64,000 nucleotides of DNA from Oscillospiraceae bacterium (GTDB lineage Bacteria > Bacillota > Clostridia > Oscillospirales > Oscillospiraceae), in assembly GCA_017449185.1 (NCBI GenBank), contig JAFSJZ010000037.1:51547-115546 (forward strand). The letters are read 5' to 3'. Below the pieces are notes generated by a model that saw only the letters and a list, made by a program, of their open reading frames with translations, was not told the DNA's origin and searched no databases. The translations under genes were made by a program, and so were the position numbers. Shown piece by piece: positions 39,334 through 43,180 of this stretch. Positions within the stretch are counted from its first letter, which is position 1. Every line of letters begins with the position of its first letter.

Positions 39334-39534
39334 ATGGCTTACAATTCCAGCAACCAGCTCGTGAACCCGAACGCTCGCGAGGCGATGGACAGATTCAAGA
39401 TGGAAGCCGCTTCCGAAGTCGGCGTCAATCTGAAGAACGGCTATAACGGCGACCTCACCAGCCGTCAGGCCGGCTCCGTCGGCGGCCAGATGGTCAAAAA
39501 GATGATCGAGGCCTACGAAAACGGCATGAAGTAA
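39334..39534 (+). CDS. Alpha/beta-type small acid-soluble spore protein
   Basis: 66 residues. The family core is visible: AREAMDRFKMEAASEVGV, containing the E-VG-type site cut by the germination protease GPR, and SRQAGSVGGQMVKKMI. These proteins coat and protect forespore DNA. ATG 39334 follows AAGGAGATG; the frame is open upstream but without a start that fits. It should be under forespore SigG control, though I could not place a convincing SigG promoter. Confidence 0.95.
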   Translation: MAYNSSNQLVNPNAREAMDRFKMEAASEVGVNLKNGYNGDLTSRQAGSVGGQMVKKMIEAYENGMK

Positions 39535-39633: not shown

Positions 39634-39653
39634 ATATGAAGAAGCGTTCATAT
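39634..39653 (+). promoter_or_regulatory. Candidate ArsR/SmtB-type operator
   Basis: ATATGAA-GAAGCG-TTCATAT, a perfect inverted repeat matching the TGAA-N6-TTCA core of SmtB/ArsR-family operators. It covers the predicted transcription start, so bound repressor would block the promoter. Confidence 0.7.
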
Positions 39654-39731
39654 AACGATCACTCCATGGCGAAGCGCATAGAAAGTGTTTCGCCTCGGTT
39701 GTTTTACGGGATAACGGAGGCGCATGAGCAA

Positions 39732-40037
39732 ATGAATCGATCTGAAATCGTTTTGCCGGACGGCGAAGGGATCTCCTCACTGTCTGGCTTTTTTCGCGTA
39801 TTTGCCGATAACACAAGGCTGATGATCCTTTGTAAGCTGACGGAGGGAGAAAGATGTGTGCTTGACATCGCCAACAGTCTCGGGCTTTCTCATTCTGTCG
39901 TTTCTCATCAGCTGAAGCTACTCCGTGAGAGAAATCTTGTCAGATGCCGTAAAGAAGGAAAGAATGTCTGGTACTCCATCGCCGATGAGCATGTATTTGC
40001 CATCCTGCGTCAGGGGATCAGCCATGTGGGGATTTGA
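39732..40037 (+). CDS. ArsR/SmtB-family metal-responsive repressor
   Basis: 101 residues. Winged helix with TRLMILCKLTEGERCVLDIANSLGLSHSVVSHQLK as the core; a cysteine sits in the alpha3 position (ERCVLD). The last helix has DEHVFAILRQGISH, matching the D-x-H...H alpha5 zinc site of SmtB/CzrA. I start at ATG 39732 because GGAGG lies ten bases upstream; the in-frame ATG at 39636 falls inside the operator and near the transcription start. It likely represses its own operon until metal binds. The ATPase gene follows after 12 bases. Confidence 0.85.
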   Translation: MNRSEIVLPDGEGISSLSGFFRVFADNTRLMILCKLTEGERCVLDIANSLGLSHSVVSHQLKLLRERNLVRCRKEGKNVWYSIADEHVFAILRQGISHVGI

Positions 40038-40049
40038 GGAGAGATAGAA

Positions 40050-42092
40050 ATGGCAAAACACCTTGCACAAGTTGAAAAGAAAGAGCCCGCCCTTATCGAA
40101 CGGGTAAAGTCGTTCCGTATGCCGGAAATCAAGATAAAAGCCCTCTCGTCCCGACGTCCGAAAGAAAAACAGGTGAGCGCGCTTTCCGGCGTGATGCTCA
40201 ACAAAACGCTTGACAGGAGCTTTAATCCCTACGATTTGCTTCTGACGATCCTCTCGCTCGTTCTCCTGTGCCTCGCATATTTTCTGCCGACGAACGGCTT
40301 GATCCGGCTTTTGAGCTTTCTTGTCCCGTTTCTGATGGCCGGCTATGAATATCTGTACGAGGCCTTTCAGGAGGCCTTTATGGGCATTGTTCTCGGCAGA
40401 GAGCTGATCATCACGATCGCCTGTCTTATGGCCTTCTGTGCCGGCGCTTATTTCGGAGCGGCAGCCATCGTGGTTTTTCTGAAGATCGCGGATCTGGCGC
40501 TTGCTTACGTCGAGGATCTGCAGAGCAAAAAGCTTTCCTCACTGTATGCTCTTCGCCCTGAGTCGGCGATTTTGACAAAGGACGGTTCCGTCAGCCAGAT
40601 CAAAGCGTCCGCGCTGACCGCCGGACAAGAGATCGAAGTCGCCGCCGGAGAAATCATTCCCGCGGACGGAACCGTGTTGGAGGGGACCTCGGTCCTCGAT
40701 GCCTCGGCGCTCGTCGGCGGGAGCCTCAGTTTTCCCGTCGCGCCCGGAAGTGCCGCCGTCGCCGGATGTACGAATATCAACGCGCAGCTGAAGATCCGCG
40801 TTGAACGCTCTCAGGCTGATTCGGTGAACGGCATGCTTATTCGGGCCGCTGAGAATGCCTGGATGCACAAGTCCTCACAGGAGCGGCTGCTGCAGCGCGT
40901 CCTGTCCTATCTTTCTCCTGCCCTTGTGCTGATCGCGTTTCTGCTCGCAGTGATCCCGTCCCTCGCCACGGGCGAATGGCGGCTCTATTTTGTCCGCGCC
41001 GCGATCCTGCTGACGGTCTCCCAGACGTATTCCGTCGTGCAGAGCGTAAAACTCGGTTATGACTGCGCCTCCGCTGCAGCGGCCGCAGCGGGAGTTGTCG
41101 TAAAGGGACATGACGTGCTTGAGTCTCTCTCAAAAGCCGAGACGATGGTATTTGACAAAACCGGAACGGTCACAGAAGGAGAGTATCGCGTCAAGGAGGT
41201 CTTTCCCAAGGGCGTTACGGAAGGGCAGCTTCTTTTCCTTGCCGGAGCGGCCGAGCTTCAGTCCCCGCATCCGATCGCCAGGGCGATCGTCGCGGCAAGC
41301 GGAGCCTATGCCTCGGAAATCACCGCAGAGAAGATCGATGAAACGCCCGGCCGCGGCGTAAGCGCCATCATAAGCGGCAGCTGCGTCTACGTCGGCAACG
41401 CGGCCATGATGGAAGAGCATGACATCCGCGCGGAGAGCCCGAGCATTCCCGGTACCGTGATTCACGTTGCGGTTGACGGACGCTATGTCGGCCATATCGT
41501 CCTTGAAGACGCGGTGCGCGACAGCGCCTTCGACGTGATCGAAGAATTGCGCGTCGAAGGTGTCGAGACAAGCGTGCTGCTTACAGGCGACGTCCATTCC
41601 GCCGCGCGGCGGATCGCCTCTTCGCTGAACTTTGACCTTGTCAAGGCCGAGCTCACACCGAAGGAAAAATGTAATTCCGTCGAATATCTTATGAGCAACC
41701 GAAACGTCAACACCACGCTGGCTTTTATCGGCGACGGCGTGTGCGACGATGACGCGCTGCGCCTCGCGACAGTCGGCATCACGCTCGGCGCATTTGACAA
41801 GCCGCAGGGTGTCGAAGCAGCAGACGCCGCGATTCTCAGCCGCGATCTTCGTGCGCTGCCGAAGCTCTACCGCCTTGCCAAACGCGCCGCAAAAGCCGCA
41901 GTAGAGCAAACTGTCTTGTGCGGCGCGGTGAAGCTGCTTGTTCTGATTTTCGGAGCGGCCGGCCTTTGCCCGCTCCCGCTTGCGGTCCTGATCCAGACGC
42001 TTGCCGTACTGGTTGAGTCCTGGTTTGCATCCCGTCTGCTGCATTACGACGGGGAACACAGAATCCTGATTTTGAAGAAAGGAAGCAGATGA
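40050..42092 (+). CDS. P1B-type heavy-metal ATPase homologue with altered signatures
   Basis: 680 residues with the order of a P1B metal ATPase: membrane helices, actuator domain, helices, then the HAD catalytic domain. The phosphorylated Asp369 lies in DKTGT, HP is at 407-408 and LTGD at 511-514. However, the TGES loop reads VGGS (222-225), the CPC ion-site motif is replaced by SQTY (about 324-327, no Cys or Pro between 318 and 336), and GDGxNDxP reads GDGVCDDD (561-568). No N-terminal metal-binding domain is present. Placement behind an ArsR regulator suggests metal response. It may be a divergent transporter or a non-pumping homologue. It overlaps the next gene by four bases. Confidence 0.85.
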   Translation: MAKHLAQVEKKEPALIERVKSFRMPEIKIKALSSRRPKEKQVSALSGVMLNKTLDRSFNPYDLLLTILSLVLLCLAYFLPTNGLIRLLSFLVPFLMAGYEYLYEAFQEAFMGIVLGRELIITIACLMAFCAGAYFGAAAIVVFLKIADLALAYVEDLQSKKLSSLYALRPESAILTKDGSVSQIKASALTAGQEIEVAAGEIIPADGTVLEGTSVLDASALVGGSLSFPVAPGSAAVAGCTNINAQLKIRVERSQADSVNGMLIRAAENAWMHKSSQERLLQRVLSYLSPALVLIAFLLAVIPSLATGEWRLYFVRAAILLTVSQTYSVVQSVKLGYDCASAAAAAAGVVVKGHDVLESLSKAETMVFDKTGTVTEGEYRVKEVFPKGVTEGQLLFLAGAAELQSPHPIARAIVAASGAYASEITAEKIDETPGRGVSAIISGSCVYVGNAAMMEEHDIRAESPSIPGTVIHVAVDGRYVGHIVLEDAVRDSAFDVIEELRVEGVETSVLLTGDVHSAARRIASSLNFDLVKAELTPKEKCNSVEYLMSNRNVNTTLAFIGDGVCDDDALRLATVGITLGAFDKPQGVEAADAAILSRDLRALPKLYRLAKRAAKAAVEQTVLCGAVKLLVLIFGAAGLCPLPLAVLIQTLAVLVESWFASRLLHYDGEHRILILKKGSR

Positions 42093-42613
42093 ACATGAAC
42101 GATGCTTTGGAAGTCCTGTATAACAGGCGCAGTATCCGCCGCTATCAGAGCGAGCAGATCAGCCGTGAGAAGCTTGACTCCGTCATCCGCGCCGGCGTAT
42201 GTGCCGCGTCCGGCAAAAACGGACAGTCCGCAATCATCATCGCCGTCCAGGACAAGCAAACGCGTGACGAGCTCTCCCGTCTCAACGCTGCCGTTCTCGG
42301 CGTGAAGGCTGATCCCTTTTACGGCGCGCCGACGGTATTGATCGTACTCGCCGAAGCAAACAGTCCCTATGCTGTTCAGGACGGCAGTCTTGTGCTGGGC
42401 AATCTGATGAACGCGGCAAAGGCTGTCGGGCTCGGTTCCTGCTGGATAAACCGTGCCAAAGAAGTTTTTGACAGCGATGAGGGAAAAGCGCTGCTGAAAA
42501 AGTGGGGCGTCGATGGCGAGTGGATCGGCGTCGGCAACTGCATTCTCGGTTATCCGGCCGAGGATCCGGCCATGAAGCCGCGCAAGGAGAATTTTGTTTA
42601 TTATGTCCTCTGA
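42089..42613 (+). CDS. Nitroreductase-family flavoprotein
   Basis: 174 residues. The N-terminal ALEVLYNRRSIRRYQSEQIS binds FMN phosphate, and GNLMNAAKAVGLGSCWI is the second conserved block. Reduces nitro compounds or quinones with NAD(P)H in relatives; substrate here unknown. ATGA overlap with the ATPase gene shows it belongs to the arsR operon. Confidence 0.88.
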   Translation: MNMNDALEVLYNRRSIRRYQSEQISREKLDSVIRAGVCAASGKNGQSAIIIAVQDKQTRDELSRLNAAVLGVKADPFYGAPTVLIVLAEANSPYAVQDGSLVLGNLMNAAKAVGLGSCWINRAKEVFDSDEGKALLKKWGVDGEWIGVGNCILGYPAEDPAMKPRKENFVYYVL

Positions 42614-42616
42614 ACG

Positions 42617-43180
42617 ATGAACGTCTACGATTTCGACAAGACGATCTTTTACCATGACAGCTCTGCCACGTTTTTTCGATATTGTCTGAAACGTTTTCCC
42701 GGGGCCGTGCTGCGCGATTTACCCGGGATTGTCTCTGCGCTTGTGCGGTATGCCCGCGGCAGGATCAGCACAAAGCGGCTTAAGGAAAGGCTCTTTGCCT
42801 ATCTGCGCTTTTTGCCTGAGACGGAGCATGTGGTTGAACAGTTTTGGGATAAACATTTCACGGGGATAGGGGAATGGTATCTGGCTCAAAAGCGGTCCGA
42901 CGATCTGATTGTCACCGCTTCGCCCGAATTCCTTGTGAGCGAGGCGGGACGCCGTCTCGGCGTCGCCGTGATAGGGACGAGGATGGATATCCGTTCCGGA
43001 AGGATCGAGGGGGAAAACTGCCGCGACAGGGAAAAAGTACGGCGCTTTCGAGAGATTTTCCCCGAGGGGGAGATCAAAAACTTCTATTCAGACTCCCACT
43101 CCGACGACCCGATGGCAGAGCTTGCCGCGAGAGCGTTTCTTGTAAAAAAAGGCTCGCTGCTTCCGTGGCGCGCAGATTAA
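42617..43180 (+). CDS. HAD-superfamily (subfamily IB) phosphatase
   Basis: 187 residues. Motif I is YDFDKTI (DxDxT-type nucleophile), motif II is in IVTASP, and motif III/IV in FYSDSHSDDPM. The helical cap lies between about residues 15 and 85. Substrate is not predictable; SerB-like or phospholipid phosphatases share this fold. Three bases after the nitroreductase gene. Confidence 0.85.
   Translation: MNVYDFDKTIFYHDSSATFFRYCLKRFPGAVLRDLPGIVSALVRYARGRISTKRLKERLFAYLRFLPETEHVVEQFWDKHFTGIGEWYLAQKRSDDLIVTASPEFLVSEAGRRLGVAVIGTRMDIRSGRIEGENCRDREKVRRFREIFPEGEIKNFYSDSHSDDPMAELAARAFLVKKGSLLPWRAD

Follow-up and report, generated by a model that had tools for sequence, protein, structure and literature searches.

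Genes and motifs at the locus

The sequence examined here (the window) is a stretch of 64,000 nucleotides from an Oscillospiraceae genome. It includes an intact, ATG-initiated open reading frame for a homologue of the P1B-type ATPases, flanked by genes for an ArsR/SmtB-type regulator, a nitroreductase-family protein and a HAD-type phosphatase (Table 1). The encoded protein is P1B by homology, scoring 365.1 bits with the NCBIfam profile TIGR01525 (cut-off 346.25), which aligns over the whole protein, and 320.0 bits with TIGR01512 (cut-off 313.5); it thus passes the NCBIfam cut-off for a heavy-metal translocating P-type ATPase. That model matches 36 of 36 sampled relatives from the clade described below at E 1e-10 or better (the cut-offs themselves were checked for the window protein), so databases are likely to name all of these proteins pumps.

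Table 1. Features of the ATPase locus, in window coordinates.
Feature	Position	Strand	Context or basis
Alpha/beta small acid-soluble spore protein gene (position marker, not a claimed partner)	39334..39534	+	Within 3 kb of the ATPase at 41/74 loci
ArsR/SmtB-type regulator gene	39636..40037	+	Ends 12 bases before the ATPase start codon
P1B-ATPase homologue, 680 aa, probably pump-dead	40050..42092	+	ORF, profile, tree, clade rows
N-terminal MAKHL	40050..40064	+	Clade rows: H4 77/91, K3 68/91
VGGS at the actuator TGES site, residues 222–225	40713..40724	+	Alignment
SQTY at the SCPC ion site, residues 324–327	41019..41030	+	Alignment, ZntA comparison
DKTGT, residues 369–373; phosphorylated Asp D369 present in the window copy	41154..41168	+	Alignment
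HP of the ATP-binding N domain, residues 407–408	41268..41273	+	Alignment
GRG of the ATP-binding N domain, residues 434–436	41349..41357	+	Alignment
P-domain stretch, residues 494–546: near-fixed, clade-specific F494, D495, E498, N527, F528, Y546; kept TGD (512–514) and K540	41529..41687	+	Clade rows
GDGVCD at the GDGxND site, residues 561–566	41730..41747	+	Alignment
Q649 at the position of the ZntA metal-binding Asp D714	41994..41996	+	ZntA alignment
Nitroreductase-family gene	42089..42613	+	Overlaps the ATPase stop; near the ATPase at 23/74 loci
HAD-IB phosphatase-like gene, catalytic motifs intact	42617..43180	+	3 bases after the nitroreductase gene; downstream of the ATPase at 71/74 loci

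Read residue by residue, the motifs are those of the original prediction: VGGS, SQTY and GDGVCDDD (residues 561–568) stand where consensus motifs would be expected, and DKTGT, HP and TGD are retained. Among proteins of solved structure, ZntA (4umv) is the best match. Counting residues along the 4umv alignment, ZntA C392 and C394 correspond to Q325 and Y327 of the window protein, D714 to Q649 and K693 to K628, where the Lys is kept. Thus, both parts of the zinc site of P1B-2 pumps (CPC and the M6 Asp D714) are replaced, and the actuator TGE is VGG. For the roles of the ZntA metal-site residues and of the TGE loop, we follow PMC8880997. A separate, canonical ZntA-like copy is also present in the window genome. 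A degenerate DNA pattern for an MxKHLAP N-terminal tag on other proteins of this genome gave no match, and was too strict in that it missed the window gene itself (MAKHLAQ).

The original prediction did not mention Q649, the downstream HAD gene or the loss of the phosphorylated Asp in most relatives. As a further observation, the C-terminal metal-site motif of the window ArsR protein ends in HVGI, with the last Glu lost; related copies read D-x-H...H..E, ending in HVGE.

A single clade within one genus

Eight orthologues with 59–72% identity were found, all in other MAGs, whose titles give Clostridiales, Clostridia, Oscillospiraceae or Ruminococcaceae bacterium; goat rumen and goat reticulum are the sources of two. 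All eight carry SQxY and GDGxCD, so a sequencing error, one of the ways in which the prediction might have failed, is unlikely. The TGES site reads VGES, VGGN, VGGS (twice), IGSS, THAN, TRSN and THAS. The proposed joint conservation of the three altered motifs is therefore borne out for SQxY and GDGxCD and fails for the TGES site, which drifts. Nor is the window copy a degenerate outlier among canonical pumps, given that CPC is missing from 8/8 orthologues and the Glu of TGES occurs in just one (VGES). D369 is invariant in a 10-row alignment of the window protein, the eight orthologues and one canonical copy.

Non-canonical relatives were collected from 91 of the 102 genomes of the window genus, one from each. 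The 11 genomes that yielded no copy are 57–80% complete; hence, all 34 genomes that are at least 90% complete with no more than 5% contamination carry one. In one of the 11 (G020), an ATPase match lies beside the HAD gene at a contig end, outside the collected set. The initial 74 rows were selected for how well they matched the window protein, then sorted on four motifs, failure in one being sufficient, after which the tree separated the groups. The other 17 rows were fetched by their position beside the HAD gene, and for this reason HAD adjacency is quoted below for the 74 only. The clade gene is nearly always a single long frame in the 91 genomes. At one locus (L223), the ATPase region falls in two open frames (527 and 213 amino acids, stop to stop), perhaps owing to a frameshift in the assembly or in the gene.

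In a FastTree phylogeny of 136 proteins, all 74 non-canonical rows, every one from the window genus, form one clade with support of 100, apart from the 62 canonical rows; the suggestion of a new subfamily is upheld. The canonical rows used for the tree and for neighbor counts include one CopA (L031), which L197 replaces in residue counts. We also searched 400 genomes of the family with a profile of residues 445–560, scoring some of the first-look candidates per genome and listing the stronger matches. The separation is clean: scores run from 156 to 188 bits for the 10 genus members and, among the matches listed for 390 genomes of 105 other genera, none exceeds 117.5 bits.

Loss of pump residues

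The phosphorylated Asp, TGE and ND do not occur together in any of the 91 clade rows. A complete CPC is found in one (L014, which also keeps D369). The phosphorylated Asp itself is present in 29 rows, the others having Gly (25), Ser (14), Glu (10), Asn (10), Cys (1), Thr (1) or a gap (1), so that, of the 90 rows without a gap here, 61 have lost D369. E224, the Glu of TGE, is retained in nine of the 91 (with 11 gaps), the Asn of ND in 39 and K628 in 58; at position 649, the equivalent of D714, Asp occurs in 33 rows, and Asp or Glu in 45. Nine rows (L209, L210, L211, L212, L213, L215, L217, L219 and L222) lack the whole actuator domain, about residues 168–262 of the window protein. These homologues are about 560 amino acids long, and the HAD gene still adjoins them.

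With the motif columns and the fragments L221 and L224 left out of the tree, D369 requires six changes, or eight losses if regain is disallowed; well-supported branches alone force three to four changes. These counts are approximate, because the FastTree trees contain long branches. D369, K370 and K540 are all retained in the window subclade, making residual phosphorylation possible there.

Retained residues, new residues and selection

The residues of the ATP site are close to invariant. Out of 91 rows, K370 is kept in 90, T371 in 89, E402 in 90, H407 in 83, P408 in 89, G434 in 83, G436 in 90, N450 in 88, T512 in 84, and D514 and K540 in all. E402, H407, G434, G436 and N450 correspond to the residues that contact ATP in P1B N domains. 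The pattern across the 91 rows is that expected of an ATP-binding pseudo-pump, with the N-domain ATP residues and the P-domain TGD and Lys present without the full catalytic set. New residues have also become nearly fixed (91 clade vs. 62 canonical rows): E498 (91 vs. 5), F528 (88 vs. 0), Y546 (87 vs. 0), F494 (86 vs. 0), P464 (89 vs. 6) and D495 (79 vs. 4).

Conservation by region has to be read with the far greater diversity of the clade sample in mind (effectively 35 sequences vs. 9.5 canonical ones). On this measure, the membrane segments go from the most conserved region in canonical pumps (0.45–0.70) to the least conserved in the clade (0.23–0.28). The actuator domain falls from 0.57 to 0.37, and the two parts of the P domain from 0.61 to 0.41 and from 0.59 to 0.47; the N domain alone shows an absolute rise (0.44 to 0.48). 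Because overall conservation of the P domain is below that in canonical pumps, any gain of constraint there is confined to single positions.

The dN/dS values are 0.048–0.202 in the clade (14 chosen pairs) and 0.061–0.212 in canonical pumps (11 chosen pairs), with dS above 1 in several pairs, where the method is poor. Residues 445–560 are free of indels in 44 sampled clade rows. The marks of a pseudogene (a broken frame, relaxed selection) were not found. Judged from these comparisons, the clade gene looks like one for a functional protein in which constraint has moved off the ion path and onto the N/P head. That the frame is intact and not that of a decayed gene, as originally held, agrees with the full-length ORF, dN/dS of 0.05–0.20 and the occurrence of copies in 91/102 genus genomes.

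The neighboring HAD gene

Within 3 kb of the ATPase, a HAD gene occurs at 71 of the 74 clade loci, always downstream and on the same strand, vs. 0 of 62 canonical loci (for which often only about 1.5 kb of flank was available). The three clade members where it does not adjoin the ATPase are L096, L101 and L149. The spacing is most often 0–25 bases, or about 500–570 bases where the nitroreductase gene intervenes. ArsR shows the opposite distribution, lying within 3 kb at 9/74 clade loci vs. 54/62 canonical ones, although some of the 54 matches are weak; an additional, distant ArsR-like match (32%) lies 3.3 kb away at L088. Six of the 74 loci (L024, L025, L046, L084, L093 and L137) were dropped from the neighbor map, and the 3-kb counts cover all 74. 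At 11 loci (L014, L018, L023, L029, L098 and others), ArsR is replaced upstream of the ATPase by a gene for a small membrane-like protein that may be VanZ-like. Some clade loci have genes downstream that we take to be SpoIIIA-like.

The HAD protein itself keeps the catalytic residues of the HAD superfamily: D5, D7, T9, S100, K140, D159 and D163 are each conserved in at least 90% of 91 HADs of the genus and 28 others. Within the genus, 93 of 102 genomes have the gene, including every one of the 34 best; of 150 family genomes, 26 have it (three of the 26 from the window genus). A sequence search at E 0.01 gave no solved relative of the HAD. In L225 and L226, the HAD gene follows obgE and the ATPase is absent.

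Pump–HAD pairs in other genera

In the genus that we label g125, an ATPase gene directly precedes the HAD gene in 6/6 genomes. Five of the six ATPases are canonical (TGES or TGEA, CPC, DKTG and ND intact; one is cut by a contig end), and ArsR was detected upstream of three of these canonical pump–HAD pairs (L264, L265 and L268). The sixth (L266, G417:C8:29000-37000) reads TGDR, ASFA and GDAVSDAS, sits on a long branch and keeps the Asp; on its sequence, this degeneration is a loss independent of that in the window-genus clade. Outside g125, no ATPase was seen directly before the HAD gene at any of 19 loci in other genera. Nor was a conserved neighbor of the HAD gene common to other genera apparent, in a comparison where ORF picking masked the HAD in 12/22 loci. 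In genus g64 (L189 and L200), a P-type ATPase of another subfamily (frames of 845 and 978 amino acids) follows the HAD gene within about 110 bases in 2/2 genomes.

Direct kinship between the g125 pumps and the clade received support values of only 11 and 51. The best-supported grouping that involves g125 is a 27-row split (18 clade, six g125 and three canonical rows) at 96. The g125 pairs, five canonical and one degenerate, taken with the clade, point to a starting arrangement of ArsR, ZntA and HAD from which the pump was retired twice. Based on these gene orders, we regard such an ancestral arrangement as likely.

Interpretation

The reading that we lean toward, by a modest margin over doubt, is that a zinc-pump paralogue became an ATP-binding, non-pumping membrane partner of the HAD phosphatase. 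Its parts differ in strength. The residue losses make it very likely that pumping has been lost in the family, and less so that the window copy, which keeps D369, has itself ceased to pump. The partnership with the HAD, suggested by adjacency and by the new, near-fixed P-domain residues, has in our view slightly less than an even chance of being right. Adjacency does not prove that the two proteins interact, because, g125 apart, the HAD gene lacks a directly preceding ATPase at 19/19 loci examined in other genera, and it does not adjoin the ATPase in 3/74 clade members.

A zntA-type pump gene, probably within an ArsR–ZntA–HAD operon, would have turned non-pumping in the ancestor of the genus. 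The protein would have retained the N domain for ATP binding and, in the P domain, the scaffold of the phosphoryl site, discarding the ion path, the dephosphorylation loop and, in most species, the phosphorylated Asp. Binding of ATP (or metal) would set the position of the N/P head, and the newly fixed P-domain residues may dock the neighboring HAD-IB phosphatase, which would be held at the membrane or switched in this way. In the window copy, with D369, a phosphoenzyme could still form, and it would not be cleared by the TGE route. Co-transcription of the two genes is presumed in this scheme, as are ATP binding, the dock, a substrate for the HAD and the switching. A more specific version, in which the pump became an ATP-reading membrane receptor that controls the phosphatase, with at least two independent conversions from a pump–HAD pair and one branch without the actuator domain, is offered tentatively, and we would not expect it to hold in full.

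Among the alternatives, the window protein may still be a transporter, a pump or leak for other cargo that would use a phosphorylated D369 and an ion site made of Q325, Y327 and Q649. D369 is invariant among the closest sequences, SQxY and GDGxCD are conserved in the orthologues and K628 is kept, all of which speaks for this reading; however, the TGES site varies freely in the same orthologues (to THAN and TRSN, among others), conservation within the clade is lowest in the membrane regions, and other subclades have the same N/P head and HAD neighbor without the Asp or the whole actuator domain. We consider this unlikely. The membrane segments also disfavor, without excluding, the channel-like homologue that was suggested originally; the signaling or regulatory homologue offered beside it fits the sequences best and is unproven. 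It is also conceivable that the pump phosphorylates itself and that the HAD removes the phosphate in place of the TGE loop, since the window protein has lost TGE and its HAD neighbor has intact catalytic residues. Because most rows lack the Asp (61/90) and the HAD is nonetheless kept across the clade, we rejected this trans-acting dephosphorylase for the family; the HAD of g125 moreover adjoins pumps with intact TGE, and we give the idea very little credence.

A functionless paralogue, relaxed or decaying and retained by chance, would explain the high divergence and the scattered loss of motifs, but hardly the persistence of nearly always one long frame in 91 genomes, dN/dS as low as in canonical pumps, the indel-free stretch in the sampled rows or the near fixation of new residues, so that we think it scarcely credible. 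A lone decayed copy was rejected, given the clade-wide presence, the low dN/dS and the orthologues. The protein could instead be a non-pumping regulator independent of the HAD, for example, a sensor of metal or ATP that acts on ArsR, the envelope or sporulation, with the HAD gene simply in a stable position near obgE. The loci with obgE and HAD and no ATPase (L225 and L226) are consistent with this, as are the frequent spore protein gene nearby and the presumed SpoIIIA-like genes downstream at some loci. Yet the close, same-strand adjacency recurs over the clade and in g125, and in g64 the HAD adjoins another P-type ATPase; we judge such a regulator to be quite improbable.

Relation to known systems and implications

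With ZntA and other P1B-2 pumps (4umv; TIGR01512), the clade shares full-length homology, domain order, KTG, HP, GxG, TGD and the P-domain Lys, as well as an ArsR neighbor in the case of the window. It differs in lacking CPC, TGE, GDGxND and the D714 equivalent, in its clade-specific P- and N-domain residues and in the MxKHL N-terminal tail. The human P-type ATPase-like protein TMEM94 likewise has P-type architecture and no TGES, and was reported to bind an ATP analogue at micromolar affinity with no detectable ATPase activity (PMC12134183), although its status is disputed (PMC13322241); it is eukaryotic, has ten TM helices and belongs to another subfamily. PfGCbeta (PMC6592433) offers another parallel, in that an active enzyme (guanylate cyclase) is joined to a degenerate P-type ATPase domain, but it is a single fused chain, apicomplexan and P4-like, whereas the window system consists of two separate genes. 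The g125 ArsR–ZntA–HAD loci (L264, L265 and L268) are alike in gene order and HAD family and differ in that their pump motifs are intact. In the literature searched, we found no degenerate or inactive bacterial P-type ATPase with a retained role; the precedents found (TMEM94 and PfGCbeta) are eukaryotic.

If the receptor reading is true, this would be a signaling device derived from a pump, for which the same literature held no described bacterial counterpart. The phosphorylated Asp, called invariant in P-type ATPases (PMC8880997), appears to be dispensable in a bacterial family under purifying selection. Automatic annotation labels such proteins heavy-metal pumps, and this should be taken as a warning. 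The natural series that runs from a canonical pump–HAD pair in another genus to a protein without an actuator domain may indicate what a non-pumping N/P head can do. Overall, the findings suggest that one genus of uncultured gut bacteria has reworked an ion pump into a scaffold or sensor that sits in the membrane and binds ATP.
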